Origin: a virus | Strand: one strand, 5' to 3' | Length of the DNA: 38,831 nucleotides | IMG/VR virus record: IMGVR_UViG_3300044293_000159 | Span: 1 to 38,831 of that record | Shown: positions 7,178 through 38,831 of the stretch, in pieces | Layout of the letters: the number at the start of each line of letters is the position of its first letter | Numbering within the stretch: position 1 is the first letter of the stretch | The notes under the pieces: generated by a model | The model's input: the letters and a program-made list of their open reading frames with translations, nothing else | The model's database searches: none | Told to the model about the DNA's origin: nothing | Made by a program: the position numbers and the translations under genes

Positions 7178-7705
7178 TTACTTGATGGGGCTGGCCTGGG
7201 CCAGCATCTGGGTCTTGTTCTCGCTCTGGCGGGTGGTGCCCACCCAGAACGCGAGGCATGCGGCAAACGCTGCCGCCAGCTGGCCGCACATGTAGACGAT
7301 GGTGTCACGGTTCTCGGCAGGGATCGGGAGCCAGAACAGGGCGGCCAGTGTGAGCAGGAAGCCTAGGCCCACGCCGCACGTCAGCAGGGCCGGCATGCGC
7401 GACGGCTGCGCGGTCTGCATCTGGCGGGCGCTGGCTCGGTCTGCGGTCTCGGCCTGGATCTGGGCCTTGGCCTGCTCGGCGATCAGCTCCTGCAGGCGCA
7501 CGGTTCGGTTCGCCTCCATCTGGCGCAGCCGGATCAGGGCGTCAGGGTTGGACGCAAGCGCGGCCTCCACGGCATCGGGCGTCGCCTGCGTGCCGATGGC
7601 CGAGGCGATGATGCTGCCGATGGCTGCGCCAGCCGGGCCGCCGATCAGGGTGCCGAGCATGGGTGCCGCTTTGCCGACGACTTGCCCGAGGTCTTTCCAT
7701 TCCAT
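7178..7705 (-). CDS. 3TM-type holin
   Basis: A 175-residue membrane protein that resembles the three-TM holin family first described for gene-transfer agents. It has an N-terminal Gly/Ala-rich amphipathic segment (about residues 8-42, PMLGTLIGGPAGAAIGSIIA), a charged helical middle (about 50-100), and two clear transmembrane segments (about 105-127 and 137-157). Holins open the inner membrane so that the endolysin can act. The start is ATG 7705 behind AAAGGAG, 13 bases after the peptidase stop. It is the last gene of the prophage late region. Confidence 0.75.
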   Translation of the reverse strand: MEWKDLGQVVGKAAPMLGTLIGGPAGAAIGSIIASAIGTQATPDAVEAALASNPDALIRLRQMEANRTVRLQELIAEQAKAQIQAETADRASARQMQTAQPSRMPALLTCGVGLGFLLTLAALFWLPIPAENRDTIVYMCGQLAAAFAACLAFWVGTTRQSENKTQMLAQASPIK

Positions 7706-7718
7706 GGTGCTGCTCCTT

Positions 7719-8168
7719 TCAGACGAGGCCGTCTCGATAGGTGGTGCCGTTCGGCGTGAAGACGGCGGTGAGCACAGAGCGGCGCGGGTGGGCGTTGAAG
7801 CTCACGTGCACCCAGGTGCCCTCTTGGATGAGCTGGTCGAACTTGATGGACGAGGCGACAAGAGCGCGTGCGACCTGCAGCGGGGTACCGAAGCCGGGGC
7901 AGATGAAGTCGGCGGCCAGGCCGACCATGTGCTGGCTGGTGCGTGAGCCCCCGACAGCACGATTGACCGCCGGGGAGCGGAAGCCGCTGCTGATCACAAC
8001 GGGCCGGCCCAGCAGCTCGCGCACGGACTGCATGCCTGGCGCCAGGAAGTTGCGGATGTTGGCCAGAGACAGCGCGTCCGGGGTGTTGTCCAGCCCTCGG
8101 CGCACCGCGGTGTCGCTGTGCAGGAACTCCGACAGGTAGAAGCTTGGCACGATGCGCTCGTCGTTCAT
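7719..8168 (-). CDS. Peptidase M15 endolysin
   Basis: A 149-residue zinc peptidase of the M15 (D-Ala-D-Ala carboxypeptidase-like) family, expected to cut peptidoglycan cross-links at lysis. The metal ligands are visible: His80 and Asp87 in SQHMVGLAADF and His121 in TWVHVSF. SSGFRSPAVNRAVGG (60-74) is the typical substrate-side region. There is no signal peptide, so release would depend on a holin. The start overlaps the preceding membrane gene as ATGA. It lies between two membrane-protein genes, a normal lysis-cassette layout. Confidence 0.9.
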   Translation of the reverse strand: MNDERIVPSFYLSEFLHSDTAVRRGLDNTPDALSLANIRNFLAPGMQSVRELLGRPVVISSGFRSPAVNRAVGGSRTSQHMVGLAADFICPGFGTPLQVARALVASSIKFDQLIQEGTWVHVSFNAHPRRSVLTAVFTPNGTTYRDGLV

Positions 8169-8359
8169 GGTGTCGTCCCCTTGTCCCGCACGATCTTGTC
8201 GCGCACCAGGATGTAGATCTGGATGGCCGTGTAGACGATGGCCAGCGTGGTGGCCACCTGCTGCAGGGTGATGTTCCCGAGGATCGTCAGGGCCCAGGCC
8301 AGCAGCAGCTTGAGCAGGGCCGGCCCCGAGTCGGCGGTGGGGTCGTGCCGGTCAAGCAT
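8165..8359 (-). CDS. Small membrane protein of the lysis cassette
   Basis: A 64-residue protein with two hydrophobic stretches (LLKLLLAWALTILGNI and VATTLAIVYTAIQIYILV) and a basic C-terminus. The chosen start is ATG 8359, which overlaps the stop of the preceding gene by eight bases; a longer form from 8389 is less likely. The place directly before the endolysin suggests a second holin or an antiholin. No family is recognised with certainty. Confidence 0.65.
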   Translation of the reverse strand: MLDRHDPTADSGPALLKLLLAWALTILGNITLQQVATTLAIVYTAIQIYILVRDKIVRDKGTTP

Positions 8360-8633
8360 TGCCGCCCTCTCGATCCAGCGCGGCCACAACGTCAGGGTTC
8401 GCCGCCAGCCAGGCCTTGAGCTTGTCCAGCGGTGGGATGACGGTGGGCGGCTGCTCGACGGCAGGCTGCAGCGGAGGCTCGCTGAAGTTCACACCGTCGT
8501 ACGTCCAGCCGACCGAAACCAACGGGCCGCACTCGACCCAGCGCAGGGCCGGGTGGAACAGCTCGTGGATGTCTTCATCGGTGTCAAACAACTCGGCCAC
8601 TCGGCCGTCCTCGATGCGTGCGTAGATGGTCAT
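8352..8633 (-). CDS. Small protein downstream of the tail fibre, possible fibre chaperone
   Basis: A 93-residue acidic protein that starts two bases after the tail-fibre stop. It begins MTIYARIEDGRVAELFDTDEDI and has a conserved-looking WTYDGVNFSEP segment, as in many small proteins encoded after phage tail fibres. The C-terminus is Pro-rich and then helical (LDKLKAWLAANPDVVAALD). A role in fibre assembly is inferred from position and this pattern. It is coupled to the lysis genes by overlap. Confidence 0.6.
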   Translation of the reverse strand: MTIYARIEDGRVAELFDTDEDIHELFHPALRWVECGPLVSVGWTYDGVNFSEPPLQPAVEQPPTVIPPLDKLKAWLAANPDVVAALDREGGNA

Positions 8634-8635
8634 GT

Positions 8636-9946
8636 TCAGGCGTACTCGTAGATGATCACAACACCGGCTCGGCCGGACCCACCGTTGGCGACGACGTTGC
8701 CCCCACCGGCGCCACCACCACCGCAGCCGAATCCGCCGCCGTCCCCGCCGAAGTTGCTGGTGGCCACGCCACCGCCACGCCCCCCGCCACCGAACTCGTT
8801 GGAGCCGCCCGTGCCGCCTGCACCCATGAGGAACGCGCCGGACACGTAGCCGCCGAAGCCGGCGCCACCGCCGCCGCCTGGGTTGTTGACCGTTCCGCCT
8901 GTCGCAGACCCGCCTGCGCCGCCGGCTGCAGAGCTCAGCGCGCCGCCGAAGCCGATGGCGCCACCCGTGCCGCCTGTGGCGGACATCAGCGCGCCGAAGG
9001 ACGTTGTGCCGCCGTTGCCGCCTGAGACCCCACCGACACCGCCGGCACCGGCCGCACCGATCGTCACGGCGACAGACGCGCCGATCTCTGCCGCAGTGAA
9101 GAGGCGCATCGCCGTTGCGCCGGCGCCGCCGCCAGCACCGCCCGCGCCAGCGTTCCCGGACACGGAGATGCCCGCGCCACCAGCCCCGCCACCGGCAATG
9201 CGGACCAGCGCGGTGCGCATCCCGGCCGTCGGGGTGTAAGTCGTGCTCGACGTGAGCACCTGCACGCCGATCAAGCGGCCTGTGATGCCGGCGATTGCGG
9301 TGTCCAGCTGTTGCTTCGGGACCGCGTGGAGCGCGCTGGAGGCGTCACCGGCTAGTTCGAGCGCCCCACCCATCGTGCCTCCTGAACGCTGGAGTGCGCC
9401 GTTGATCAGGTCGCGCACCGCCGTGGCCAGCTTGGTGAGCGTGATCGAGCCGTCAGCCACCACGACCTCAAGGCTGCCGCCGTCCGTGATGGACGCGACG
9501 ATCAGGTTTCCAGAGGCATCAAAGCCGATGAACTTGGACGCGCGGTCGGCCTTGGCTGGCAGCTCCTGCAGCGTCTCGCCGACAGGTGCACGCAAGCTGC
9601 GCCCGAACTGGCCAGCGTCCTCCTGCAAGGCCATCCACAGCCGGTCGAGGTCGTCATCGAGGACGGCCGCGGTCAGGTCGCCGTTTTCTTGGTAGTCGGT
9701 TGCCCGGTTGCGGCCGACGTCCCGGTACAGCAGCACGGCGGCCCCCGATGCCGGGGCGGATGAGAACGTGATGGTGCCGCCGAGGCGATTGCCAACGCCA
9801 GACACTGTGAAGCCGGTGGTGACGTCCACGCCAGCCACTTTGACCTTGAGGTCAGATGTGGCCAGGATGGCGAACGGGTATGCAAAGGTGGTCGTGACGC
9901 CGTTGGCGACGTGCTCGACGACGGGCGTCTGACTGGAAATCGGCAT
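8636..9946 (-). CDS. Tail fibre with glycine-rich C-terminal domain (cassette A)
   Basis: A 436-residue fibre. Residues 1-130 resemble the virion-attachment domain of podovirus fibres (VEHVANGVTTTFAYPF, then VLLYRDVGRNRATDYQENGDLTAAVLDDDLDRLW). A helical and shaft region follows (about 130-225). Residues about 240-430 are extremely Gly-rich with repeated GAGG, GGTGG and NPGGGGGAG motifs and end in GRAGVVIIYEYA. Such glycine-rich ends occur on phage receptor-binding tips and can form polyglycine-II sandwiches, as in the gp38 adhesin of phage S16. The receptor here is unknown. It lies between the large terminase and the lysis cassette. Confidence 0.85.
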   Translation of the reverse strand: MPISSQTPVVEHVANGVTTTFAYPFAILATSDLKVKVAGVDVTTGFTVSGVGNRLGGTITFSSAPASGAAVLLYRDVGRNRATDYQENGDLTAAVLDDDLDRLWMALQEDAGQFGRSLRAPVGETLQELPAKADRASKFIGFDASGNLIVASITDGGSLEVVVADGSITLTKLATAVRDLINGALQRSGGTMGGALELAGDASSALHAVPKQQLDTAIAGITGRLIGVQVLTSSTTYTPTAGMRTALVRIAGGGAGGAGISVSGNAGAGGAGGGAGATAMRLFTAAEIGASVAVTIGAAGAGGVGGVSGGNGGTTSFGALMSATGGTGGAIGFGGALSSAAGGAGGSATGGTVNNPGGGGGAGFGGYVSGAFLMGAGGTGGSNEFGGGGRGGGVATSNFGGDGGGFGCGGGGAGGGNVVANGGSGRAGVVIIYEYA

Positions 9947-9974
9947 GCAGGCCTCGCGTGCGCGGGGCCGGTGG

Positions 9975-11615
9975 TCATGCTTCGACCGTCACCTCATAAA
10001 CCCCAGCGCTTGGGCGCCAATCGTGGCCCCGCGCGGGGTCTGGGTTCCCGACCTTCACCCCCCTGCCGATCCGGGTGGGCTGGTCGTTCAGGCACTCGGC
10101 CTCGGCGTCAAGGAAGTCGTCAGGCTGGTCTGTCACAGCCGGGTTCCAGCTGCGCATCTGTTCCTCGACGGCATCGAGCACGGACACATGGGCCCACAGG
10201 TAGCCGGATGACAGCGGGGCATCGAACGCGCCCAGGATCTTGCGGTTCTTGTTCGTGCTGGTGTGGCGCCCCTCGACCCCGCAGCGCAGGCGCCGGGCCT
10301 TGAGCGCGGCCTTGAGCAGGTTGGGGGCATGCGTGCCCACGCCGTTGGTCTCGACGGACACGCGCGGGATGGACAGCTGCTCCACCAGGTCGCAGATCTG
10401 CCAGACCTGGCCGCCGATGATCTTGCCGTTGTCGTCCAGATCGGCCACTTCGCCGGTCAGCGCGGCAGCACGATGCCAGTAGTGGTTGCCGTGCTCGTCC
10501 TGCATGTCCAGGCACAGGGCCGACGTGTCGCTCTTGATCTTCGAGCCGGCCGGGTCCCAGTGGCATGTGGCCGACACGATGCGCACCTTGCCCAGCCACA
10601 TGACGTCCTGCCCGTTCGACGGGCGAAACACCGGCTCCATGTCGTAGGCTTTGATGCGGTCAGGATCCAGGCGGCTGTCGGTGATGGGCTTGGCCTCGAG
10701 CATGTACTGGCTGTCCCAGGCGTTTAGCGTGCGTGTCTCCTTGCGTCGGCGCTCGATCTCGTCGCGCGTGAAACGCTTCGGCCAGGCGCACATGCTGCAG
10801 ATGTCCACGACGCCGCCGGGCGGCTTGAGGAACACCACGGCGTCACCGCGGCGCACGTAGTCCTTGCCCTCCACCGCCATGCGGGCCTGCTTGTGGATGC
10901 CGAGCATCACGTACAGCCCATCGTCGCCGACCTGGTGGGGGAACACATAGCGCCCATCCTTGGGCGGCTCACGCCAGCGTTTGGCGTGCTCGAAAAGCGC
11001 GATCTTGAGCACGGCGGCCCCTCCTGCGATCTGCTCCGGGTAGATGGAGTCGTGGGCGTGCGGCGTGCCGATGTACGTTTTCTGAGCGCCGGGCACCGCG
11101 ATGTGGGTGGACTCGCTGATGCGCTGGCGCAGCTTGAGCCGGGCCTCGGGCGTCTCGATGTTGCCGGGCACCTCGATGTCGTCGAAGTCCACGGCGTCGG
11201 CCCGGGCACCGGTCGCGTTGGACGTCACGCCCACGGCGCGCATGCTGGCGTTTCGCGCATCCCTGGCGCCGAGCACCCAGAAGCGTTTGGCGCCCGGCTT
11301 GCTGGGCAGCATGCCCTGCGTGAGCGGGTGATTGCGCAGCACGTTGATGGTGTCTGCCGTCAGCATGCCGGCGGTGTCGTTGTCGGCAGACCAGACCAGC
11401 GAGCGGTGGTGCCGGTTGCGGTAGAGCTTCCAGGCCTTGAACACCCCGTAGATGGTCGACTTAGCCGCGCCGCGAAACACCATCAGGACCCGCTCTGGGG
11501 CGTCGCAGGTCTCCAGCCACACGCAGATGCGCACGTGCAGGTGCGGGACCTCCCATCCCTGCAGGCGAGCCCACAGGATGAAGAAGGTCAGGAAGCCGAC
11601 TTCACGACTTTCCAC
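9975..11615 (-). CDS. terL: Terminase large subunit (cassette A)
   Basis: A 546-residue DNA-packaging motor. The ATPase has a Walker A of the terminase type, FRGAAKST (47-54), and a Walker B, AVDFDDIE (141-148). The nuclease domain has an acidic site at Asp354 (CHWDPAGSK) and a late FLDAEAECL motif. The best start is GTG 11615, which overlaps the small-subunit stop by 14 bases; the longer open frame to 11711 has no family likeness. The gene lies at the end of the structural genes, before the fibre and lysis genes, unlike phages with the terminase first. It is the only terminase in the window. Confidence 0.9.
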   Translation of the reverse strand: MESREVGFLTFFILWARLQGWEVPHLHVRICVWLETCDAPERVLMVFRGAAKSTIYGVFKAWKLYRNRHHRSLVWSADNDTAGMLTADTINVLRNHPLTQGMLPSKPGAKRFWVLGARDARNASMRAVGVTSNATGARADAVDFDDIEVPGNIETPEARLKLRQRISESTHIAVPGAQKTYIGTPHAHDSIYPEQIAGGAAVLKIALFEHAKRWREPPKDGRYVFPHQVGDDGLYVMLGIHKQARMAVEGKDYVRRGDAVVFLKPPGGVVDICSMCAWPKRFTRDEIERRRKETRTLNAWDSQYMLEAKPITDSRLDPDRIKAYDMEPVFRPSNGQDVMWLGKVRIVSATCHWDPAGSKIKSDTSALCLDMQDEHGNHYWHRAAALTGEVADLDDNGKIIGGQVWQICDLVEQLSIPRVSVETNGVGTHAPNLLKAALKARRLRCGVEGRHTSTNKNRKILGAFDAPLSSGYLWAHVSVLDAVEEQMRSWNPAVTDQPDDFLDAEAECLNDQPTRIGRGVKVGNPDPARGHDWRPSAGVYEVTVEA

Positions 11616-12009
11616 CGTGCACCCGCTTGTCGAAGGCGGCCTTGCTGGTGCCGTTCTGCAGTTCGCGCAGGAGCTTGGCGGCCTCTCGCTCGGCCGCCGC
11701 CACCTCGGCATCCAGCTGCGTCACGGCTGGGTCGGTCTCGCCCTGCCCATCACCCTGCGGGGGCGTGGTCCCGGCACCCGCCATCTGCACCTGGCCGACC
11801 ATCGTCATCACCCTGGTGTAGAGCATGCCGGCGCTGGCCGCCGTCTTGCGCACCCAGTACAGGTCGCCGCGCGTCTGCGCATCCATCTGCCCGATCTTGA
11901 GGCCCTGCCCGGGCCAGCTGCTCGGGTCGGCTTCATCGAGGAACACATCCATGAGCTTCTCGCCCAGGGCCTGCAGCTTCTCAAACTGGTCTTGACGCAT
12001 GGTGGTCAT
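11602..12009 (-). CDS. terS: Probable terminase small subunit (cassette A)
   Basis: A 135-residue protein that directly precedes and overlaps the large terminase gene. Its N-terminal half is helical (FEKLQALGEKLMDVFLDE, then DLYWVRKTAASAGMLYTRV), followed by a Pro/Gly linker and a C-terminal coiled coil (about residues 95-125). This fits a small terminase that oligomerises and selects DNA, but the assignment rests mainly on position and size. The start overlaps the upstream stop as ATGA. Confidence 0.65.
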   Translation of the reverse strand: MTTMRQDQFEKLQALGEKLMDVFLDEADPSSWPGQGLKIGQMDAQTRGDLYWVRKTAASAGMLYTRVMTMVGQVQMAGAGTTPPQGDGQGETDPAVTQLDAEVAAAEREAAKLLRELQNGTSKAAFDKRVHGGKS

Positions 12010-14585
12010 TCTCCCGCGATGGCGGTCAGATCAGGCGCCCGTACGTCGTTGCCATAGGGGTCGAGCCAGAAGTCCTGGCCCCAGTCCTTGCGGGCCTTTC
12101 CCTGGATGCGGCCGAGATAGCCGGGGCTCATGTTCTCCTGCAGCGCATACAGGCCCATGTGGTCGATGGCCGCTTTGGCATACCAGAGGTTGACCAGCGG
12201 CAGGTGGGAGCGTGCGAAGCGTAGGCCCTCGGCGCCCACGTTCATGTCCTTGCCCGCGTTCCACTCGTCGAAGTTGCCCTTAGTGAGCGCGTAAAGGTCA
12301 GCCGCCGTGCCGAAGCCAGGGCCCAGGAAAGACCGGCCGAAGGTGTCCATGGGGCTGCGGTCGTCGGTGGTGTCCTGCAGGATCATGTCGCCGACAAAGC
12401 CGAGCCCGCCGCCTTGGGCGACTGCGCGGCCCCAGAACTTCGGGGTGGTCATGTCCACCGGGTCCTTGCCGCTGACGATCTGGCGCGTCTGGAAAGCGAT
12501 GGCACCCAGCGCGGTGAGGCTCACCATCATGGCGCCGGCGTAGGCCAGGCGGTTGGCGGTCAGCGGCGCGCCTTCCAGGCCTTGCGGCGTCTCAAGCATG
12601 CGGCGCCAGTGGCGCGACATCATGGCGATGGGGAATGACTTGAACTGGGCGACGCTGCGCCACAGCTCCCCGTCGATTGATCCGCGCTGGCTGCCGCCCG
12701 CCGTGACGATGGCGCGCGTGGCCAGATCCGGGTTCAGCACGGCCACTTCGCTCTCGTCGCTGATCAGGCCCAGGTACTTGGCCACCACCTCGCCGGCCCG
12801 CTGGTCTCCGGTCGCGTAGATGGCATCCGGCGTGATGTGCTCGGCGCCACGGTGGGTGACGGGCTGAGCCTGCTGGATGACCTGCCAATCGGCCTCGGTG
12901 AGCCCCTTCGATTCCATGCGCCACCGGTCATAGGCGGTCAGGCTGCCCCAGTCCGTGTGACGCAGGCGGCCCATGCCTTCCATCATGGTGAGGGAGAAAG
13001 CCCGGCGCAGGGTGTCCGTCCACGCGTTCATCAGGCTGAGCTTCATCGTGCTGTTCGACAGCCGGCCAGACCACGACTGCGCCACGTTCTCGGCCGTCCA
13101 GCGCGACAGGTCGCTGATCATGCTCTCGGCGATCATGCCGTGGGCATTCATGAAGGCCTTGGTGTCGTCGGTGGCGGCGGCTCCCAGGTTCTTGAAGGCG
13201 TCCCAGTAGCTCAGCTTGTTGAAGCCCGTGGTGACGAAGTAGGTGCCCAGGTCGGTGATCGACGACAGCACCGCGCCCTGCAGCTTGCCGAAGGTCTCGA
13301 TGTTGCGGATGTGGGTGCCGATCTGGGCCACGCGCGCGGACAACGCCTGCCCGCTGGATCCGTTGAGCACCCGCCAATAGGCGTCGGCGTAGTTGCCGAA
13401 CACACGGCGGTTGGTTCCCCCGTCCGCCTCCTTTGCCAAGTCAAGCTGCAGTCGCATCTGCGCCTCGGGGTTCGGGCCGTAGCGCTCGACCAGGGCGATG
13501 TCCCGAGCAAGGCCGCCAAGGTGCCCCATCATCGCGTCGTACATCGAGCCAGTGCCGAACTGGCGCAGGTACTGCAGGTAGGCGTCGCCGTCCTTGAAGT
13601 GGATCTCGCGCGACTGGCTGCCACGGTTGGCCCGGGCGCCGGTGCCGCGAGCCTGGCCCGGGGCTGCCTTGTTGGCGCCATCGCTGCTGATCGTCTCCCA
13701 GGCACCGCGCAGGATGTCGAGCACCTCGGCGTCCGACAGGCGGGCTCCTGCGTCGTCGACGTAGCGTGAGCGGTCGAGCATTGGGAGAACAGTCTTTGCC
13801 CAGTAGTCTCGAGAGTACTGGGCAGGTGGGTCTCTCACGACGCTCGCTCCGGCCGCAAGCACTTTCCCGCCGGCGGATTCCTGTGCGGCGATCCACTCCT
13901 TTGCCCCTGCCCTCCGGACCTCGGCCTGGTCGTGCGCCTGGGGCAGATAGCCGTAATCCAGCCGGCCCACGTCCCCGCCCGCGCCATTGAACCGCTGGCG
14001 CAGCTGCTCTGTGACCTTGAGCCACGCTTCGGCGCCTGCCTTGGCGATGGGGTTGCCTGTGTTGGCCTTGCCCATCGAGAACACCTCCATGGCCAGGTCG
14101 CGCGTCATCAGCGGGTTCTGCGCGTCGAACAGCGTCATGAGCACGCGGCGGCCTGCACTCGCACCGGTCTGGTTGTCGGCAGCCTCGATCAGGTCGATGA
14201 GCTGGCGCGCGCCGTCGCGCTTGATGCCGTCGATGTAGGCGTTGGTGCGCTCCATGTCGTCCACCAGCGCCTTCGTCCTACCGCTGCCCTGCCGCTGCAT
14301 GTAGTCCTGAACTCGCTGTTCCATCTCTGCGGTCTTGAGCGCCTGCCGCTGAGCGTTGGCCACCTTGCGCGCGGCCTCGTCGGCGAGGTCTTGTGCGGCC
14401 TGCTGGGCAGCCAGCAGCACCCGCTGGTCGGCGGGGTAGCTCTGCCAGTTCGGATCCTGGCGGGCCAGCCGGCGCATGGTGGCCTGCATCCGGTCATCAA
14501 TCGCGCGGGCCTGCGCGTCTGTAAGCGCCTTGCCGCCGGCTGCGATCCGGGCGGCGTTGAGCTGGTTTCGGCATTTCGGGTTCAT
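12006..14585 (-). CDS. Large internal virion / DNA-ejection protein (cassette A)
   Basis: An 859-residue protein, mostly helical. It has a Gln/Ala/Arg-rich coiled N-terminus (about 1-120) and long central helices (about 340-600). Near residues 675-715 a hydrophobic stretch (LAYAGAMMVSLTALGAIAF) is flanked by conserved-looking aromatic and basic segments (WRSVAQFKSFPIAMMSRHWRRML and GRAVAQGGGLGFVGDMI). Large proteins of this kind in BPP-1- and T7-like podoviruses lie inside the capsid and are ejected to form a channel for DNA entry. It follows two other probable ejection proteins and precedes the terminase genes. The start is ATG 14585. Confidence 0.75.
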   Translation of the reverse strand: MNPKCRNQLNAARIAAGGKALTDAQARAIDDRMQATMRRLARQDPNWQSYPADQRVLLAAQQAAQDLADEAARKVANAQRQALKTAEMEQRVQDYMQRQGSGRTKALVDDMERTNAYIDGIKRDGARQLIDLIEAADNQTGASAGRRVLMTLFDAQNPLMTRDLAMEVFSMGKANTGNPIAKAGAEAWLKVTEQLRQRFNGAGGDVGRLDYGYLPQAHDQAEVRRAGAKEWIAAQESAGGKVLAAGASVVRDPPAQYSRDYWAKTVLPMLDRSRYVDDAGARLSDAEVLDILRGAWETISSDGANKAAPGQARGTGARANRGSQSREIHFKDGDAYLQYLRQFGTGSMYDAMMGHLGGLARDIALVERYGPNPEAQMRLQLDLAKEADGGTNRRVFGNYADAYWRVLNGSSGQALSARVAQIGTHIRNIETFGKLQGAVLSSITDLGTYFVTTGFNKLSYWDAFKNLGAAATDDTKAFMNAHGMIAESMISDLSRWTAENVAQSWSGRLSNSTMKLSLMNAWTDTLRRAFSLTMMEGMGRLRHTDWGSLTAYDRWRMESKGLTEADWQVIQQAQPVTHRGAEHITPDAIYATGDQRAGEVVAKYLGLISDESEVAVLNPDLATRAIVTAGGSQRGSIDGELWRSVAQFKSFPIAMMSRHWRRMLETPQGLEGAPLTANRLAYAGAMMVSLTALGAIAFQTRQIVSGKDPVDMTTPKFWGRAVAQGGGLGFVGDMILQDTTDDRSPMDTFGRSFLGPGFGTAADLYALTKGNFDEWNAGKDMNVGAEGLRFARSHLPLVNLWYAKAAIDHMGLYALQENMSPGYLGRIQGKARKDWGQDFWLDPYGNDVRAPDLTAIAGE

Positions 14586-14602
14586 CGTGTACGCTCCGGG
14601 TC

Positions 14603-14842
14603 GTGGAAAACCTGTGGACCGCCCTCAAGACCTTTGCCGCCATCGGCGTGATGACGATGATCATCCCGCTGATGATCGCGGGCGGCTCGGGGTCGTGGCG
14701 TGAGGGCCTGAAGGCCTGGGTGGCCTATCTGAAAATCATGGGCGCCATGGTGGCCATCTTCGGTGGCTTCGGCCTGGTGATGGCCATCGCTGAGCACGGC
14801 TTCGGCGCCTTCTTTGAGTGGCTGTCTCTGCTCACCCATTGA
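14603..14842 (+). CDS. Antisense-strand small membrane protein
   Basis: A 79-residue protein on the + strand, opposite to all neighbouring late genes. It starts at GTG 14603 and its 3' end overlaps the end of the 14832-16805 gene by 11 bases. Two hydrophobic segments are clear (FAAIGVMTMIIPLMIA and IMGAMVAIFGGFGLVMAIA), joined by a short charged loop (SWREGLKAW). Codon third positions are strongly G/C, as in real genes of this region, and it fills an otherwise empty gap. I do not recognise a family. A lysogeny-expressed membrane function such as superinfection exclusion, or a lysis accessory, is possible. Confidence 0.75.
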   Translation: MENLWTALKTFAAIGVMTMIIPLMIAGGSGSWREGLKAWVAYLKIMGAMVAIFGGFGLVMAIAEHGFGAFFEWLSLLTH

Positions 14843-16805: not shown

Positions 16806-16806
16806 G

Positions 16807-19826: not shown

Positions 19827-19828
19827 GG

Positions 19829-27856: not shown

Positions 27857-27867
27857 GTGCACCTCAA

Positions 27868-30942: not shown

Positions 30943-31465
30943 CATAGACGCCTCCGAGCAAGCCTTGTTGACGACGAGCCATGCGCTTTGCCTCAAGCTG
31001 CGCCATCTGCTGGTTGTTGGCGCTCAGCAGGCCGGACAGGTCTTGGTACTGAGGCAGTTGCCCACCCTGCACCGGCTCCTGCTGATTCATGGCCTTGGCC
31101 TGGTTGTACATCTCCATCCCCTGCGTAGCTGGTTTTGCATACTGGCCCACAGTTGACAGCAGACCGCCGCCACCAGCTTCGCCAACACCTGCGGCAATCT
31201 GCGGAGTGGCCCGCACACTCATGTCAGCGATGGGGGCTGGTGCCTGCGTGCCTGCGAAGTTGAGCCAACCACCCGTTGAGCCAGCGGTCGATGCCCCAGC
31301 AGATCCAGCACCTGCCGAGCCTGCGGCAGGCAGCGCATACGGGGCAGCGACCACCAAGGCAGCAGTACCCGCCAACTGAGCGTCAGACATGCCGGTTGCG
31401 TTCTTGAGAGGCTTGCGCAGGAAGCCCATGCCGAAGTCGGCACCGAAATCACGGAAGAAGCTCAT
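30938..31465 (-). CDS. Small virion protein with GTQAPAPI motif (cassette B)
   Basis: A 175-residue Ala/Gly-rich protein with one hydrophobic segment (AQLAGTAALVVAAPYALPAAG, residues about 29-49). The segment GW then GTQAPAPIADMSVR (about 65-87) repeats the end of the cassette A protein at 18838-19371. The C-terminus is Gln-rich and helical (NNQQMAQLEAKRMARRQQ). Start and stop overlap the neighbours. The shared motif suggests a common binding partner or ancestry. Confidence 0.7.
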   Translation of the reverse strand: MSFFRDFGADFGMGFLRKPLKNATGMSDAQLAGTAALVVAAPYALPAAGSAGAGSAGASTAGSTGGWLNFAGTQAPAPIADMSVRATPQIAAGVGEAGGGGLLSTVGQYAKPATQGMEMYNQAKAMNQQEPVQGGQLPQYQDLSGLLSANNQQMAQLEAKRMARRQQGLLGGVYG

Positions 31466-32178
31466 TTCCCGCCTCCGCTCTGGGTCGTGGTGGACCCGCT
31501 CATGTTGTTCAGCCCGCCGCCAACCGCAGCAACTTGCTGCAACGGGTAGTTCTGCTGGTTCTGGAACTGCTGGTACTGGAAGTCGGCCTTGTCCTGCGCG
31601 TTGTTGTAGGCCACGTTGCCAGCGTTGAGCAGTTGATTCGCGCCCGTATAGGCCGAGTTCTGCACGCCCGATTGCAGACCCAGCGCAGCCAGCTTGTTTT
31701 GCTGGTCGGTGTTGTAGGCGCTTCCATACATCGTCGTCGCGATGTCTGCCGCCTGCTTGCCCGCCTGAGTCTGCTGGTACTGCTGCATCTGCTGCAAACC
31801 AGAGTTGCCAAACGACCCGCTGTTGACCATGGCGCTTTCGGTCTGCGGCTTGGTGAACAGGTTGTAGGTGTCTGCGACACTGCGCTGCGCGTTCGCGACC
31901 TGCTGATCCAGATATGGGTTCTGCTGCCCGCCTGCGAGCATCGAGGACAAGGCGCTTTCGGCCTGGCCCTGAATCTGGCTGTTCCCCGCCTGGTTCGCAA
32001 TCTGATCCAGAGCCGAGGTCTGGTACTGGTTCAGGTCAGCAACGCCTTGCCCTTGGTAGCCCTGGTAAGGCGTGTTGGCAAGGTTCGTGACCAGTTGAGA
32101 GTAGGACGACGCCGCGCCCTTGAGTTCATCCGGGATGGTCCGGGATGTTGAAGATTTCGATCCGCCGCCGCCGCTCAT
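31462..32178 (-). CDS. Gln/Asn-rich tail protein (cassette B)
   Basis: A 238-residue protein unusually rich in Gln, Asn, Ser, Ala and Gly, with many Gln pairs (YQQTQAGKQAADI, FQNQQNYPLQQV). It opens with a Gly/Ser run (SGGGGSKSSTSRT) and is otherwise mainly helical, with no Cys. Proteins of this makeup occur between the nozzle and ejection genes of several podoviruses. The role is unknown. It is coupled at both ends (ATGA). Confidence 0.65.
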   Translation of the reverse strand: MSGGGGSKSSTSRTIPDELKGAASSYSQLVTNLANTPYQGYQGQGVADLNQYQTSALDQIANQAGNSQIQGQAESALSSMLAGGQQNPYLDQQVANAQRSVADTYNLFTKPQTESAMVNSGSFGNSGLQQMQQYQQTQAGKQAADIATTMYGSAYNTDQQNKLAALGLQSGVQNSAYTGANQLLNAGNVAYNNAQDKADFQYQQFQNQQNYPLQQVAAVGGGLNNMSGSTTTQSGGGK

Positions 32179-32585
32179 GCTGCAACCCTCATCGTTGTGT
32201 AAACCGGCTCAAAGCCGCAAAGTCGTTCGTACAGCCTCGCTTGTGCAGGCTTGGCGCAACAGCGAATCTCGCTGCACCCATTGCTTTCGGCGATATGTTT
32301 CAGTGAAGCGAAGAACTCCTGAAACCGACCGTGAGGGGCGTAGAGGCTGTACACGTGCAGCACGCGGATGTTTGGTAGCTGGTCAACCTTGACCACACCC
32401 CATCCAGCAATCTCACCGTCACGGTCCATGCGCAGCAAGGTGCGCTCACCACGGCTCAACATCATCTTGAGTTGGTCGCCTGTAATCTCGCCGCCCGACA
32501 CGTCGCAAGCCCTCGACAGCGCGGATGCGCCATCACGCCATGCCCAGTCGATCATGTGAGCCGGGACTGTCAGCAACTCAACCAT
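32175..32585 (-). CDS. GNAT-like acetyltransferase (cassette B)
   Basis: A 136-residue protein from ATG 32585, in a TGATG overlap with the preceding stop; the longer open frame to 32651 is not needed. It has a GNAT-like order: a helical start, TLLRMDRDGEIAGWGVVKV as the central strand pair, a strand VLHVYSLYA, then a helix after HGRFQEFFASLKHIAESNGC, and a C-terminal ARLYERLCGFEPVYTTMRV typical of GNAT ends. The CoA-loop motif is degenerate. Cassette A has a GNAT in a comparable place, but the two sequences differ widely. Confidence 0.7.
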   Translation of the reverse strand: MVELLTVPAHMIDWAWRDGASALSRACDVSGGEITGDQLKMMLSRGERTLLRMDRDGEIAGWGVVKVDQLPNIRVLHVYSLYAPHGRFQEFFASLKHIAESNGCSEIRCCAKPAQARLYERLCGFEPVYTTMRVAA

Positions 32586-32890
32586 CAATTCCCCGTCAGA
32601 AAGCGGCACTGAACCCACGTGCCAGGAGCCCCACCAGCGACGCAGCGCCATCCGTGGACGATGTACTTGGAACCAGCCGATCCGAGCTCCGAAGGCTCGC
32701 TGTTAAGCACAAAGTCACCGCGCGCCCATGTGCCTGTCGTCGGCACCGATGTCAGAGCCGCATGGCTGTAATGCTGCTTGCCCTCGCTGATGCCGTTCAA
32801 CTGCTGCACGATGCGGCGCAGAACAATCGTCAACTGCCGTTGCAGCCCCTTGGCATCGGCGGGAAAGTCGTTTTCCTCGCTGATCCTCAT
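32585..32890 (-). CDS. Small protein between nozzle and GNAT genes (cassette B)
   Basis: A 101-residue protein. The first 45 residues are helical (MRISEENDFPADAKGLQRQLTIVLRRIVQQLNGISEG). The rest is beta-type with a segment (TGTWARGDFVLNSEPSELGSAGSKYIVHGWRCVAGGAPGTWV) like the small beta domains often found on phage fibre or spike proteins. The start overlaps the nozzle stop as ATGA. A minor tail or tip function is possible; no family is certain. Confidence 0.6.
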   Translation of the reverse strand: MRISEENDFPADAKGLQRQLTIVLRRIVQQLNGISEGKQHYSHAALTSVPTTGTWARGDFVLNSEPSELGSAGSKYIVHGWRCVAGGAPGTWVQCRFLTGN

Positions 32891-34329
32891 CGCACACCTG
32901 CCGGGATCAACTTGGGCTGAATGGCCGTGAACTGGCCGGGTCCAGATCCATCAACGCGGAATCGGTGGAAACGGTCGGTCTGGCGAAGCGGGAACTTGGA
33001 GCCGTCAAAGCCAACAGTGAACGTCGTCACAGAGCCCTCTCCGCTGGTGCTCTTTGTCTTCGACGTGCAAGTGACGGTGCCCGGCTTCAGTGCCCACCGC
33101 ACACGCAACTCGCCGCAGAACGACGAGGCGAACTCGTCGCCATAGTCGCCAGTCTCAAACCACCAGTCGCCAGGAACACCCGTCAGCGTCAGCAGTTGAT
33201 GCGACGGACCGAAGATGGCGGGGTTGCTCTTGCTTGCAAGCCAGAACGGCGAATCGTAGGCAATCGCGGGGCCGCTGTCATAGCTGGTGATGAGCGGCGA
33301 CCCGGTGTCATACGTGATGCCCGGCGAAACGTAGTTCACCGCAGCCTCGACCGTGCGTTTCACCCTACCCCACTTCTTGGCCTGCACGTGGTAGACGATG
33401 CAGTCATCACACGCACCTGACGACGATGAGGACGGAAAGAAGATCCAGACCAGACCGTTATCCCTGTCCCACAGCAGCTTCGTGCGATAGCGGAACTCGG
33501 CCGACGAGTTGTCCAGCCACCACTTGCGAACGACGCCCGTAGCGATGGGCACAGGTGCGGTGCCGTCGTACAGATAGATGTTGTCCGAGCCGACGAACAC
33601 GTGACCAGCGGATGTGTCTGCTGCCGCTTCTGGGCCGACGCATCCCACATCAGTGCTGACGCTGCGCCAGTCCCACACGGTAGGCGTGCCAGCGTAGTAG
33701 CCCCGGAACATGGCCCGGTTTTTGTACGCGATGATTTCATCACCGAATCGAACCGCAGCCGTGAAACCGCCAGACCCCTCAGTCAGTCGGCCAGTGGTCG
33801 CCTGAGTCGAGATGTTCGGAGTCCAGTCCGTCTCGTTGAACAGTGCCGAGCACCACCAGCGATCCGGGTTGTTGCCGTAGGTCGCGTCCTCAGTCGAGAA
33901 CGCAACAATGAAGCCCTTGGCCGCAACGATGATCTTTGCCTTCGGCGCGCCAGACACAGCAGAGAACGCGGCTCCATTGCTGCGAATGATCCCCACGCTC
34001 GGGCACGTCGCAAGCACCGCATCACCGAAGCCGACAAACGACCAGCGGTCATCAGATCCAAGCGCGTAAGAGCCGCCGACGCTGTTCCACGTCGTGCCGG
34101 TCGCCTCAAACATGCCCGTCGACGTGCCCGCAAACATGCGAGCGCCGCCCGACAACTGGCGGATCACAGCCGACCCACGCACCTCGGCAGCAAGTGCCGA
34201 CAATCCAGCAGACACAGCAGCAGGAGCCGCACGCATCCCCGACTCATACGGGACGATCCCATCTGCATCGAGAATCGCGCCCTCGGTCGTCGGCTCAACG
34301 TCAGGGGAGAAGCCAAGCAGCGGGATCAC
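32887..34329 (-). CDS. Tail nozzle-like protein (cassette B)
   Basis: A 480-residue beta-rich protein with repeated Trp- and Gly-containing blades (GSDDRWSFVGFGDAVLAT, DRWWCSALFNETDW, AMFRGYYAGTPTVWDWRSV, DNIYLYDGTAPVPI), which suggests a beta-propeller. Nozzle proteins of SU10-like and related podoviruses have such a fold. It starts at GTG 34329 in a GTGA overlap with the adaptor gene. The order adaptor-nozzle mirrors that in cassette A, but it is much shorter (480 against 724 residues) and lacks the GELTP start. Confidence 0.7.
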   Translation of the reverse strand: MIPLLGFSPDVEPTTEGAILDADGIVPYESGMRAAPAAVSAGLSALAAEVRGSAVIRQLSGGARMFAGTSTGMFEATGTTWNSVGGSYALGSDDRWSFVGFGDAVLATCPSVGIIRSNGAAFSAVSGAPKAKIIVAAKGFIVAFSTEDATYGNNPDRWWCSALFNETDWTPNISTQATTGRLTEGSGGFTAAVRFGDEIIAYKNRAMFRGYYAGTPTVWDWRSVSTDVGCVGPEAAADTSAGHVFVGSDNIYLYDGTAPVPIATGVVRKWWLDNSSAEFRYRTKLLWDRDNGLVWIFFPSSSSSGACDDCIVYHVQAKKWGRVKRTVEAAVNYVSPGITYDTGSPLITSYDSGPAIAYDSPFWLASKSNPAIFGPSHQLLTLTGVPGDWWFETGDYGDEFASSFCGELRVRWALKPGTVTCTSKTKSTSGEGSVTTFTVGFDGSKFPLRQTDRFHRFRVDGSGPGQFTAIQPKLIPAGVR

Positions 34330-34913
34330 ACCGGGCTCCCGATGTTCATAGACATAGAACCGCCGCTGTGCTGGCTCATGGCCTCGGACATGTTCAATGC
34401 GTCCTTCGCGGCCACATAGAGCGTGTCATAGGCTTGTGCGGCAGCAACGTCCTTGAGGTACACAGCGGCCTGCTTCAACGACTGGAACAGGTACACGTCA
34501 TAGGCATTCGACAGAAGCCAGTTCGTGTCCGTGTCGTCGGTCAGCGCGGCGAACTTCGCTCGATACAGCAGCGAGTAGGCCCCATCACCACCTTGCAGCA
34601 CCTTCACCTGATTGCCGATGCGCGTGAAGTAGTAGCCGCGTTCGCCACTCGTCTGGAGTTCTTGAAAGCGCTCAAGAGGCACGTAGTCCAGCGGGTAGCC
34701 GTTGACTACGACACGGCGCAGTTCAACCGCATCAGCAGGCACGTCGAAAGCGCCGTCCACCATCGAACCCGATGCGCTGGAATCCATCGCAGGCACGCGC
34801 ACGTCACGACGGATAACAGCCTCAGCCAAGCGCACGAAGGATGCGACGTTGGCGTTAGCCTGGCCGTGCGCCACCCAATCCAGCACATCGGCCTTGAGGG
34901 TTGCGTATGTCAT
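34326..34913 (-). CDS. Head-tail adaptor protein (cassette B)
   Basis: A 195-residue protein with the pattern of SU10-type adaptors: MTYATLKADVLDWVAH, a helix VASFVRLAEAVIRRDVRV, then DVPADAVELRRVVVNGYPLDYVPLERFQEL, and a C-terminal helix pair beginning LLSNAYDVYLFQSLKQAAVYL. It should form the ring between portal and nozzle. Start and stop overlap the neighbours (TGATG, GTGA). Confidence 0.85.
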   Translation of the reverse strand: MTYATLKADVLDWVAHGQANANVASFVRLAEAVIRRDVRVPAMDSSASGSMVDGAFDVPADAVELRRVVVNGYPLDYVPLERFQELQTSGERGYYFTRIGNQVKVLQGGDGAYSLLYRAKFAALTDDTDTNWLLSNAYDVYLFQSLKQAAVYLKDVAAAQAYDTLYVAAKDALNMSEAMSQHSGGSMSMNIGSPV

Positions 34914-35212: not shown

Positions 35213-35242
35213 GTGCAGACCCTTTTCTTTGCCGCGTGGACA

Positions 35243-35266: not shown

Positions 35267-35286
35267 GTTGTGGAGCGTCAGTTAGC

Positions 35287-36228
35287 TCAGGAAAGATCTC
35301 GGATCGCGCCGTGGGCTTTTTCGTTGTGAACCTTCAGAGTCCACTCGCAGTTCACCAGGAACTCGTCGGCGTCACCGCGCTTCGCCAGCGGGGTTGCCTT
35401 CATCGAACGCAGAGTGCCCAGCGAGGCGTGCTCAGGGTGGATGACGAACACTTCACGCGAGCGCATGTGGCGGGCGTTGACCACCTTCTGACGACCGTAG
35501 GGGCCGATGTAGACCTCCAGCGTGGCGGTCAGGGTCTTGTCCTCGGCCTTGTCGAAGCGGGTCTGACCGGACAGGAAGCCGTCGAACACCACGCGCTGAG
35601 CCGATGGGATCAGCAGGTACGTGCCGTCGATGTCGGCGCCGTTGTCGAACATCAGCTTGTTCACGTCACGCAGCAGCGTTTCGGTGAAAGCGCGGGTCGT
35701 GCCATCGGTCGGAGCCGTGTTGGTCAGCGGGTTCGGGTCAACGCCGCCAGCGCCCTTGCTGGTGTTGGTGGCGATGAAGCCGAGGAAGCCGCGAGCCTGC
35801 GGAGCCACACCGGCAGCGGCAGCGATGGCCGTGGTGTTTTGCAAGCAGCCGAACTCGATATCCTTCTTCAGGGCGACCATTGCCTTGGTTTCCTGATAGG
35901 CCGACTCGTCCTTGCCGCCAGCCTTTTGCGTGGCGTTCTGGGTGCCGGTGATCGAGATCACGTCTTCGCTGATCTGCGTGCGGTTGCTGTAGCGCGCAAC
36001 GTCAGTGCGGGCAGTCGGCGACGACAGGTTGCCTTGCTCGACCTTGTTGTTTGCGCCAGCGCGGAACGAGTCGTTCAGCCACTCGACAAACACGCCGTCA
36101 ACCTTCTCCTTGCCGATCAGGGCAAGGGTCGGGGTATCCGACACGGACACGTTCCAGATTTTGTCGGCCAGTTGCTCACGGTTGCGCGAGCTGTTCACGG
36201 TGCCGAAGCTGTTGGTGATTTGGGGCAT
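35287..36228 (-). CDS. Major capsid protein, SU10 type (cassette B)
   Basis: A 313-residue protein that fits the SU10-type major capsid family (HK97 fold). Diagnostic patterns are the early NREQLADKIWNVSVSDTPTLALIGK, then EWLNDSFRAG, the segment YSNRTQISEDVISITGTQ, and the C-terminal strands EVYIGPYGRQKVVNARHM and VNCEWTLKVHNEKAHGAI. The length is usual for the family. ATG 36228 lies five bases after the scaffold stop, with AGAGGTAA as ribosome binding site. Its sequence shows no clear likeness to the cassette A capsid protein. Confidence 0.9.
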   Translation of the reverse strand: MPQITNSFGTVNSSRNREQLADKIWNVSVSDTPTLALIGKEKVDGVFVEWLNDSFRAGANNKVEQGNLSSPTARTDVARYSNRTQISEDVISITGTQNATQKAGGKDESAYQETKAMVALKKDIEFGCLQNTTAIAAAAGVAPQARGFLGFIATNTSKGAGGVDPNPLTNTAPTDGTTRAFTETLLRDVNKLMFDNGADIDGTYLLIPSAQRVVFDGFLSGQTRFDKAEDKTLTATLEVYIGPYGRQKVVNARHMRSREVFVIHPEHASLGTLRSMKATPLAKRGDADEFLVNCEWTLKVHNEKAHGAIRDLS

Positions 36229-36233
36229 GGTGA

Positions 36234-37229
36234 TTACCTCTTGGTAGATGCCATCGCCTTGGCGAAGTCGCGCACGCTGATGTTTCCGCGTGCTTTCGCC
36301 ACTCGTTCGATGACTTGTTCAGACTTGGTAGGTGCCGTGCGCTGCGCGGGGGGCGCTTTCTTGGGCGCTTCGGTCACCTTCTTCACGGCTTTGGGCTTCT
36401 CCGCCTGGAGAGCGCGCCACTGCGCCGCGTCGTGCAGGACTTTCAACATCCGGCCATCGACAACCGCGCCAAGTTCTTCCGCCGTGAATCCGTAATCACG
36501 GCCAGCCTTGGACATGGTTTCGAGTGCCTTCTGACGGACTCCAGCGTCCGTGTCGAAGCCCTTGATGTGCTGTGCGAGCGTTTCAGCGGCCTTCTGATTG
36601 GCTTGCTGCCAGTCGATTGCCTGCTGCTGCGCTTGCTGTTGCGCGAATGCCTGCCGCTTCACGCCGATTTCTTTGCCGAGCTTCTCTTCCTGGCCCTGCA
36701 ACTCAAGCACCCGGAGGCGGTGCATCTGGTACGACTGAGGGTCGTCCTGCATGAGTTGCTGCCAGTTCACCTGTCCGTACTGCTGCAACTCCGTGCGGAT
36801 GTTTGCAAGCTGACCGAACTCGGCGGCGAACCGCTCGACCTCTTGAATCTGCTGATACGCAAGCTGCTGGACTTGCTTGCGTTCCTCGGCAACGGCCTGC
36901 GTCTTCTGCCGGTAGTCGGCATCGCGCATGTAGCCCGCTTGAAGCTCCTTCTCGGTGGCTTCAAACGTCTCTCCGCTTGCGGTCGTCCACTTGATGACCC
37001 GATCCTCGGGCGAGTCCGGTTCTTCCGGTTGTTCGTCCTGGCTTTCTTCCTCACCTTCCGCTTCGGACTCATCCTCTGCTTCGGGTTCGGCCTGATCGCC
37101 TTCGGGTTGACCTTCCGATTCGGTCAGTTGCTCGTCATCGGGGCCAGAGTCCTCGCCTTGAGGTTGTTCCGGCTGGTCCGCCTGAGAGAGCATCGACGCG
37201 TAATCGTCAATCGAGAGTGCTTCGGACAT
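36234..37229 (-). CDS. Capsid scaffolding protein (cassette B)
   Basis: A 331-residue protein. Residues about 15-75 are a highly acidic Glu/Asp/Gln/Pro region. WTTASGETFEATEKELQAGYMRDADYRQKTQAV is a pattern common in podovirus scaffolds. A long Gln-rich coiled coil follows (about 110-230), and the C-terminus is basic (RTAPTKSEQVIERVAKARGN onward). Scaffold proteins direct capsid assembly through such basic ends. It is directly upstream of the capsid gene and follows a terminator. Confidence 0.85.
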   Translation of the reverse strand: MSEALSIDDYASMLSQADQPEQPQGEDSGPDDEQLTESEGQPEGDQAEPEAEDESEAEGEEESQDEQPEEPDSPEDRVIKWTTASGETFEATEKELQAGYMRDADYRQKTQAVAEERKQVQQLAYQQIQEVERFAAEFGQLANIRTELQQYGQVNWQQLMQDDPQSYQMHRLRVLELQGQEEKLGKEIGVKRQAFAQQQAQQQAIDWQQANQKAAETLAQHIKGFDTDAGVRQKALETMSKAGRDYGFTAEELGAVVDGRMLKVLHDAAQWRALQAEKPKAVKKVTEAPKKAPPAQRTAPTKSEQVIERVAKARGNISVRDFAKAMASTKR

Positions 37230-37266
37230 TGCTGATCCAAGGTTTGAAGCACCAAGGTGTGACGCC

Positions 37267-37302
37267 CAAAGAAAAAGGGCCTCAGATCGCTCTGAAGCCC
37301 TT
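37267..37302 (-). terminator. Intrinsic terminator before the cassette B scaffold gene
   Basis: On the minus strand AAGGGC-TTCAGAGCGATCTGA-GCCCTT type pairing (six outer and four inner pairs past one mismatch, 37275-37302) is followed by TTTTTCTTT. The scaffold starts 38 bases further on. Confidence 0.85.
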
Positions 37303-37354
37303 GGGGTTGTCCTAACTTGATGCCCTAGAGAACCGCTCTAGGCCGGGTTGAGGC

Positions 37355-37687
37355 TTATTCCGTGGTGCCGTCGCTGTAGAGCGCCTGGCATGGGCCACGT
37401 TTCAGCCGAATCCCGCTGTAAATGCCTGGGTAATGGCCGCCGTCCTCGGCGTCCGGGTGCGTGATTTCGACCAGCACGACGCCGTCGCGCTCTTTCGACC
37501 GGATGAACGTCATCAGATCGACAGGCGCGGGCTGGATTGCAGGAGCCGCGAAAACGGGCTCAGGCGCGATTTCAGGTGCGGCGTGTGCCTGCGCCTCAAC
37601 AGGCTTCGACTGAGCCAGCAGCGCCGCTTCTGAGGCCTTCTCTGCGTTGCTCTTGCGCCCGCGCTTCTTGGGTTGGTCAGCCAGCAT
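37355..37687 (-). CDS. Small protein between portal and scaffold genes (cassette B)
   Basis: A 110-residue protein from ATG 37687, which overlaps the previous stop by 11 bases; a start at 37717 is possible. The N-terminus is basic (QPKKRGRKSNAEKASEAAL), the middle is Ala/Pro-rich and probably disordered, and the C-terminus is a small beta-type domain (RDGVVLVEITHPDAEDGGHYPG, RLKRGPCQALYSDG). The function is unknown. A terminator follows. Confidence 0.6.
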   Translation of the reverse strand: MLADQPKKRGRKSNAEKASEAALLAQSKPVEAQAHAAPEIAPEPVFAAPAIQPAPVDLMTFIRSKERDGVVLVEITHPDAEDGGHYPGIYSGIRLKRGPCQALYSDGTTE

Positions 37688-37988
37688 AGGAACGTGCCTT
37701 CTCTTTGATCGATTCAAGGCGTGCGGCAGTGTGTTCCTCGGCCATCAGCTCGTACCGAGTGACCTCAGCGCCACGCAACTGCAACTCGAAGACGTTGAAG
37801 AACTGGCGCGCCACCTTTTCCATGAGAACGAGCGACTTGATGTCGTCGATCATCTCGACCGGCAGAGCAAACACCTGCTCGCGGATGCCGGTCATCACGC
37901 TTTCCCGCGCCTTCACAAACAGCGGGTCTTCGATGATCCGGCGCGCCTGGTCGGCAATCGCCAGTTGTGCGCGTTGCTGCTCGTTCAC
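37677..37988 (-). CDS. Small helical protein after the portal gene (cassette B)
   Basis: A 103-residue, nearly all-helical protein (RIIEDPLFVKARESVMTGI, then IDDIKSLVLMEKVARQFFNVFELQLRG). It sits where cassette A has the Bbp19-like gene relative to the scaffold, but the sequences are not visibly alike. It overlaps the portal stop as ATGA and is coupled to the next gene. The function is unknown. Confidence 0.65.
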   Translation of the reverse strand: MNEQQRAQLAIADQARRIIEDPLFVKARESVMTGIREQVFALPVEMIDDIKSLVLMEKVARQFFNVFELQLRGAEVTRYELMAEEHTAARLESIKEKARSYAG

Positions 37989-38831
37989 TGTGCAATCTCC
38001 TGTGCGCGGGCCATGTCGTCAGATGTGCGCATCACGGCCTCTTGCTGCCTGATCTGCTGATCGACCATCGCGTTCTGCGCCTTCAACTGCAACTCAAGCT
38101 CTTTCAGGCGCAACTCGGCTTGCTTGATCTGCAATTCAACCTGCGCCTTCTGAGCATCGATGGCCGCTGTCTGCTGCTTGTGCTGAATGTCGGCCTGTTT
38201 CGCCTGCACATCAGCCTGCGCCCGCATCATGTCGGGATTGGGCTGAGGCGGCTTCGGCGGCTGCTGGGTAGGGTCTTGCAGCAGCTTCACGTCCGCGCCC
38301 AACAGCTTGGCAGCGCGGGCAAGGCGCTTGCCGTATTCGTACACCTGAGCCGGGCCAACCACACCCATCGGTGCAGCAACCTGCATGTACTGGCCGAACA
38401 GTTGGAGCATCTGGATTTCTTCCATGCGCTCACCATTCGTGCTGCCGATCTGGATCTTGCAATCCATCTGGTCCGACCACGACGACGGGTCGAACGGAAC
38501 CCACTCATTGCGAAGACGAACCACGTCTTGCACGTTCTGGTGCTGCGTAACCAGGCGCAGAACGATCTTGAAGAATCGCTTGAGCCCGGTGTTCGCCATG
38601 ATGCGCAGCGTCGTTTTCAACCGCTGCTCACTGGCCTGCATGATCTTGCTGACGCCGGTCGCCGTCTTGTTCAGGCTGTCAGCGTCAAGGCCTTGGTTGT
38701 ACTTCGTAATGCCGAGGCGAGTCTCGCGCATCGTGTCGGCGAACTGGATGCCCTGCAACGACTCATTGGCGACTAGGCTGGTCTGCACAGGAGCAAATGC
38801 CACGTTCGCCGGTCCATTGCCGCGAATCAGA
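37985..38831 (-). CDS. Portal protein, C-terminal part, cut by the window edge (cassette B)
   Basis: The frame is open to the right edge, so only about the last 280 residues are seen. The pattern LQGIQFADTMRETRLGITKYNQGLDADSLN followed by KTATGVSKIMQAS is typical of SU10-type podovirus portals. Then come helices (LKTTLRIMANTGLKRFFKIVLRLV), a wing-type segment (WVPFDPSSWSDQMDCKIQIG) and a long Gln/Lys-rich C-terminal coiled coil (about the last 80 residues). Portals form the 12-subunit ring for DNA passage. It is the only portal in the window. Confidence 0.9.
   Translation of the reverse strand, partial: LIRGNGPANVAFAPVQTSLVANESLQGIQFADTMRETRLGITKYNQGLDADSLNKTATGVSKIMQASEQRLKTTLRIMANTGLKRFFKIVLRLVTQHQNVQDVVRLRNEWVPFDPSSWSDQMDCKIQIGSTNGERMEEIQMLQLFGQYMQVAAPMGVVGPAQVYEYGKRLARAAKLLGADVKLLQDPTQQPPKPPQPNPDMMRAQADVQAKQADIQHKQQTAAIDAQKAQVELQIKQAELRLKELELQLKAQNAMVDQQIRQQEAVMRTSDDMARAQEIAQ

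Follow-up and report, generated by a model that had tools for sequence, protein, structure and literature searches.

Genome organization

The IMG/VR virus record IMGVR_UViG_3300044293_000159, a 38,831-base sequence classed as linear and probably a fragment, was analyzed over its whole length (hereafter, the window). It falls into three blocks. The plus strand carries a small integrative element (bases 1-6912), and the minus strand carries the late half of a phage that we call A (6912 to ~25.4 kb) and the virion module of another phage, B (~26.7-38.8 kb). A and B are two ordinary temperate short-tailed phages joined in this record through the tip of a tail fiber, and this join arose either by mistaken assembly or by accidental recombination.

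Both virion cassettes are real sequence, with every gene on the minus strand and reading frames intact. An earlier annotation (the original prediction) had read them as two unlike cassettes in one prophage, with one portal and one terminase between them. Profile searches bear out the two unlike capsid families: the A major capsid protein (23193-24086) belongs to PF19821 Phage_capsid_2 (E 1.4e-61; 88% identity to its homologue in the A-type contig L002 and 86% to that in L003), and the B major capsid protein (35287-36228) belongs to PF17236 SU10_MCP (E 6e-74), in agreement with the SU10 type assigned to it. The family profile of the A capsid has 9eg4 as its sole PDB match, and that of the B capsid matches the PDB head protein 7z45 (E 2e-25). 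The label of BPP-1 type given to the A capsid finds no support in the sequence; its nearest named relatives come from Yersinia phage YeP4-6, Acinetobacter phage TPWB-05 and Alcaligenes phage Piluca, and no Bordetella phage appears by organism name among the tblastn matches to it at 1e-5.

The predicted pairs of scaffolds, adaptors, nozzles and fiber regions, all on the same strand, are likewise present. The A scaffold-position protein (24320-25207) matches PHROG 3742, a family of unknown function, and its position before the capsid gene is conserved in contigs L002-L005; the B head scaffolding protein (36234-37229) matches a PHROG head scaffolding family (E 1e-46). The adaptors are a tail tubular protein in A (22003-22569; PHROG tail protein) and a PF24175 SU10_adaptor protein in B (34326-34913; E 5e-26). 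For the nozzles, A has a tail nozzle protein (19829-22003; PHROG tail protein, E 1e-185; PDB 8ck1 "Tail Nozzle," E 7e-70), and B has a nozzle-position protein (32887-34329; PHROG virion structural protein, E 6e-44). By BLASTP, no A protein is similar to its B counterpart. Also as predicted, neither an integrase nor an attachment (att) site lies between the cassettes: the only tyrosine integrase (PF00589) match in the window is at 928-1509, and the 31-bp att repeat described below has no further copy between A and B, where no tRNA gene was found either.

The hybrid tail fiber

The two cassettes are linked by a gene for a hybrid fiber (25536-26969, minus strand). Its anchor, the first 74-92 residues, is B-type, with 53-62% identity to fiber 2 of the B-type contigs L021, L071 and L079, while residues 93-477 form an SGNH-hydrolase-like tip of the kind found in the A-type contig L078, with a weak GDSL/SGNH hydrolase match below the Pfam cut-off. 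Residues 93-349 share 94% amino acid identity with the L078 fiber, which has an anchor of another kind and is preceded immediately upstream by the gene for an A-type portal. At the DNA level, identity to L078 is 67-73% before nucleotide 390, rises to 90-100% over nucleotides 390-990 (~600 bp) and then falls to 79%. A stretch of 149 bp (26422-26570, minus strand) is identical to the L078 fiber tip, and a search with an exact 45-base tip pattern returned L078 as the sole match. This patch of raised identity has the pattern that a recently exchanged piece would leave. Pieces exchanged between temperate phages and prophages by homologous recombination have a median length of 404-494 bp, and the ~600-bp patch is of the size found for such temperate-phage mosaics (PMC3945230).

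The same tip family recurs on other phages. In contig L130 (8763-10160), it is present over its full length at 56% amino acid identity, joined to an anchor that seems to resemble the B-type one; the capsid and portal of this podovirus contig look P22-like, judging from their translations. A distant copy (29%) lies beside fiber 2 in B-type L079. Given its occurrence in L078, L130 and L079, the tip family is common to unrelated virion types, and it is mobile between them.

The junction between A and B most likely lies inside the fiber gene, rather than between genes near 25.5 kb, where the original prediction had set the link. A junction at 25.4-25.5 kb was ranked second, as L078 shows that the tip belongs behind an A portal. 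Codon usage in the fiber is B-like, and the fibers of A-type phages are B-like as well; for this reason, codon usage was rejected as a means of placing the junction within the fiber, since it parts A genes from B genes and not the tip. Contigs L021 and L078 both end inside their fiber genes, which suggests that assembly is difficult there.

Portal and terminase

That a single portal and a single terminase are seen is owed half to the contig edge and half to the join. Within the contig, the portal does occur only in B and the terminase only in A, as had been stated. The two absences differ in kind, however: the B terminase is missing because of the contig edge, and the A portal is truly absent. 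The B portal (37985-38830) is present as its C-terminal 281 residues, open at the contig end and matching positions 382-593 of the 593 positions of PF23899 SU10_portal (E 1e-57). In the B-type contigs L012, L021, L055, L074 and L079 and in Comamonas testosteroni JL40, a terminase relative is found upstream of the portal; the B terminase is absent from the window because the contig stops inside the portal and the relatives' terminase lies just beyond that point. The genes of phage B run from terminase and portal through scaffold, capsid, adaptor, nozzle, ejection proteins, fiber 1 and fiber 2 to the lysis genes. The most complete B-type record, L079 (39.8 kb), is a B-type phage with lysis genes and an integrase relative.

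In phage A, the order is att, lysis genes, fiber, terminase, internal proteins, nozzle, adaptor, capsid, scaffold, a second fiber-position gene in some relatives, and portal. The A portal family, Head-tail_con (PF12236), was found in contigs L003, L004, L078, L127, L128 and L129 and in JL40, and no such portal lies upstream of the A scaffold and capsid genes in the window. Six A-type relatives cover the spot where it is expected. In L127 and JL40, the portal stands directly upstream of the homologue of the last certainly A-type gene in the window (25173-25418, minus strand; PHROG 5977), and in L003, L004, L128 and L129, the order is portal, one fiber-position gene and then this homologue. The window keeps the fiber-position gene, but B-type fiber 1 and the B ejection proteins stand where the A portal belongs.

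The closest relatives of the window at 25173-25418 are L127 and L002, from one metagenome (88% DNA identity), and DNA homology to L127 stops at 25412. The 118 bp that separate this gene from the fiber (25419-25535) find no counterpart in any A or B relative with which they were compared. We considered whether they are a remnant of the C terminus of the A portal and rejected this, as no compared portal has such an end and the peptide was found at no other place in the fetched loci. This interval also holds an 11-bp inverted repeat (GCACGCGCGGC/GCCGCGCGTGC).

Composition and co-occurrence

The two cassettes differ in GC content (0.675 in A and 0.610 in B) and in codon usage, where a leave-one-out analysis grouped all 11 A genes together and set 12 of the 13 B genes apart from them. 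With the window as a positive control, PF19821 was found in none of the 43 B-type records of at least 15 kb, and none of the seven A-type records, several of them short fragments, contained both capsid families. Co-residence of the two phage types in one host does occur: the genome of C. testosteroni JL40 has virion modules of both the A type and the B type, each on a contig of its own (L097, G049:C69; L098, G049:C67). Among 401 genomes of the C. testosteroni family, the A-type capsid is present in one and the B-type capsid in seven.

Origin of the join

Chimeric viral contigs are a recognized assembly error (PMC11727651), and we commit ourselves, narrowly and at about an even chance, to an assembly chimera as the cause of the join. 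The assembler would have passed from B into A along a stretch of tip sequence identical in both. The tip occupies the portal end of the virion module in A and the far end of the module in B, and because these are opposite map ends, one B-to-A switch inside it would stack the B module in front of the A module on one strand, with the fiber in frame and no two-virion design needed. The same switch would account for the loss of the A portal and the B lysis genes and would leave the B terminase beyond the contig end. This account starts from features read directly off the contigs, namely the gene orders, the hybrid fiber, a tip shared with another A-type phage that is identical over 149 bp and the truncation at the contig edge; that phage B's own fiber has an almost identical tip, and that the switch took place in silico, is inferred. 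Several points weigh against such an origin. Assemblers mostly break at shared sequence and join wrongly just sometimes, outside the window a close copy of the tip was seen in no B-type phage, and real recombination is possible because a host carrying both phage types, JL40, exists.

An assembly chimera and a single crossover in vivo predict the same contig, so the anatomy of the window serves equally well for a real recombinant molecule, produced by one crossover in the shared fiber tip between phage B and prophage A. This is a serious possibility, if a less probable one, and here the "recombinant of two prophages" of the original prediction survives as one of two live readings, now placed at the shared tip, with an assembly chimera at least as likely. 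Such a molecule could form by two routes. Two prophages in the same orientation could lose everything between their tips, including the A portal, the A early genes and integrase, and the B lysis genes; alternatively, a circular B genome could insert whole into the A fiber gene, in which case the A portal would lie beyond B and nothing would be missing. Prophage A appears to be integrated, with its lysis end at a tRNA-Pro att as in L111 and L115, the tRNA-Pro site carries a second element in tandem, and JL40 shows that both modules can reside in one genome. Temperate phages are known to swap pieces of ~400-500 bp with prophages by homologous recombination (PMC3945230), tandem and nested prophages are known (PMC8112680), and the hybrid fiber is in frame at a domain boundary. 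The window resembles mosaic, tandem and nested prophages in that two temperate phages are joined at a shared sequence, but the join is known from this one contig alone, being seen in no relative, and may be an assembly product. Against a real molecule, the GC content and codon usage of A and B have not converged, and the tRNA-Pro core was not found in the fetched B-type relatives, leaving a tandem B prophage at the same site unsupported; tandem A and B prophages at one tRNA were rejected on this ground.

If, instead, the whole fiber were phage B's, an illegitimate join in the 118 bp between the fiber stop and 25173-25418 would suffice. These bases are unmatched in the relatives compared, the GC change falls closest to 25.4-25.5 kb, and the fiber has B-like codon usage, though so do the fibers of A-type phages. 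We consider this unlikely, as it takes a coincidence to put a tip with 94% identity to an A-type fiber exactly where A-type phages carry a fiber. Less likely still is the other suggestion of the original prediction, which finds no support here: a true mosaic phage, retaining the two virion modules and able to assemble mixed or alternative particles. Both modules have intact frames on one strand, and a combined genome of ~45-50 kb is imaginable, extrapolating from the 39.8-kb B-type record. Against this, the A portal is absent beside the A module, the B module is cut by the contig end, the lack of BLASTP similarity between A and B makes it unlikely that their adaptors and portals are interchangeable, the compositions of the two modules differ, and no relative has both capsid types (0/43 B-type records with an A-type capsid). 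We find it similarly hard to believe in a real prophage with two complete, unrelated virion modules and one early-gene set that arose by a tip crossover and would yield two capsid types on induction.

The finding is mostly ordinary, and its instructive part is the mobile fiber tip that links unrelated phages. If the join is an assembly product, a mobile tip that is identical over more than 100 bp between phages can weld two of them into one record, and the fiber genes deserve a check whenever a viral contig holds two unrelated capsid genes. If the join is real, it represents a simple fusion route for prophages of unrelated virion types, in which a tip at opposite map ends allows one crossover to stack their modules. 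Either way, one SGNH-hydrolase-like tip family spans two or more unrelated types of short-tailed virion (that of A-type L078 and that of L130, read as P22-like), and in the window the same family is joined to a third, B-type anchor.

Gene content and relatives of cassette A

Cassette A has the same gene order as the 36-kb contig L004, at 49-86% identity. It begins with lysis genes (7178-8389) comprising an endolysin (7719-8168; PHROG endolysin, E 4e-37) and a probable holin (8165-8389; PHROG, E 2e-4), followed by a tail fiber with a glycine-rich C terminus (8636-9946) and the large terminase subunit (9975-11711; PHROG, E 6e-67; 80% identity to L004). Three internal or ejection virion proteins (12006-14585, 14832-16865 and 16807-18825) are 63-81% identical to those of L004 and lie in the same order. 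Contigs L111 and L115, both A-type, have their lysis end directly against this tRNA-Pro core without an intact tRNA, as at 6866-6912 in the window, and because of this arrangement, A is most likely an integrated prophage of which the window shows the late end. The A lysis end and tRNA-Pro att are also found in L114 (IMGVR_UViG_3300036944_000710; 79% DNA identity over 862 bp), which has no A-type capsid match, and this suggests that the lysis/att module moves independently.

Among named phages, Alcaligenes phage Piluca and Acinetobacter phage TPWB-05 resemble A in their order of portal, two small genes, capsid, tail proteins, GNAT and internal proteins, and TPWB-05 also has its terminase and lysis genes at the end. 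Compared with Piluca, TPWB-05 and Yersinia phage YeP4-6, however, the capsid is merely 44-50% identical, and the window lacks a portal at its place. No A-type capsid turned up when bacterial genome contigs were searched for it.

Gene content and relatives of cassette B

Cassette B is an SU10-type (kuravirus-like) module, sharing the PF17236 capsid, the PF23899 portal, the PF24175 adaptor and the order portal, scaffold, capsid and adaptor; in SU10 itself, the portal is gp6, the capsid gp9 and the adaptor gp11 (PMC9509320). It has low identity to named phages, at most 36.7% for the capsid among the matches listed. The nearest B relatives are metagenomic contigs, and the bacterial genomes with B relatives are mostly betaproteobacterial. 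Beyond the genes already described, the cassette has fiber 1 (27035-27862; PHROG tail fiber, Gp53-like_C), with an N terminus 53-68% identical to those of B-type L012, L021 and L071, and four ejection or internal proteins (28031-29695, 29695-30996, 30938-31465 and 31462-32178; together 28031-32178), two of which match PHROG DNA ejection proteins; the block is syntenic with L012.

The two predicted GNATs hold up as GNAT-position genes. That of A (19374-19877) matches a PHROG acetyltransferase (E 7e-30), and that of B (32175-32651) is 57-61% identical to the same gene in its closest B-type relatives and has no PHROG match. A GNAT-like gene directly follows the nozzle gene in both virion types, and an A-like GNAT is also present in B-type L042.

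The tRNA-Pro site and the 6.9-kb element

The contig begins inside an att copy (1-31, minus strand) consisting of 31 bp of the 3' half of tRNA-Pro(TGG), an exact direct repeat of 6882-6912. The second att copy (6866-6912, minus strand), at the left end of prophage A, is a tRNA-Pro 3' half that includes the CCA end. The 47-mer around it occurs in intact tRNA-Pro(tgg) genes of contigs L107, L109, L110, L113, L116 and L117, and it also borders the lysis end in L114 and in the A-type contigs L111 and L115. A 25-bp direct repeat, AGAAACGGCAACCGAACGGCAACCA (156-180, plus strand, and 6776-6800), lies a short way inward of each att copy, and its copies are probably integrase arm sites.

Between the att copies, all on the plus strand, are a tyrosine integrase (190-1617; PF00589, Arm-DNA-bind_3), an AlpA-like regulator or excisionase (2157-2639; PF05930) and a Toprim primase fused to a DUF3987 helicase-like domain (2812-5274; PF13362, PF13148; PHROG primase and helicase). 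Bases 1-6912 look like a complete small element that is part of neither virion cassette and adjoins prophage A at the same tRNA site. With its integrase, AlpA and Toprim/DUF3987 primase between tRNA-Pro att copies, it resembles P4-like satellites and other small integrase-AlpA-primase elements, but no packaging or capsid-size genes were recognized in it, and it is separate from the cassettes. Relatives of its integrase are present in 16 of the 401 genomes of the C. testosteroni family, one of which has relatives of the integrase, AlpA and primase within ~8 kb; no close relative of this integrase was found on a scan of viral contigs. The same tRNA-Pro core also flanks another prophage: in IMGVR_UViG_3300017650_000161 (L112, L116), a prophage of ~32.5 kb lies between two copies of it, with an intact tRNA-Pro at one end and, beside the other, an integrase 36% identical to that of the window.

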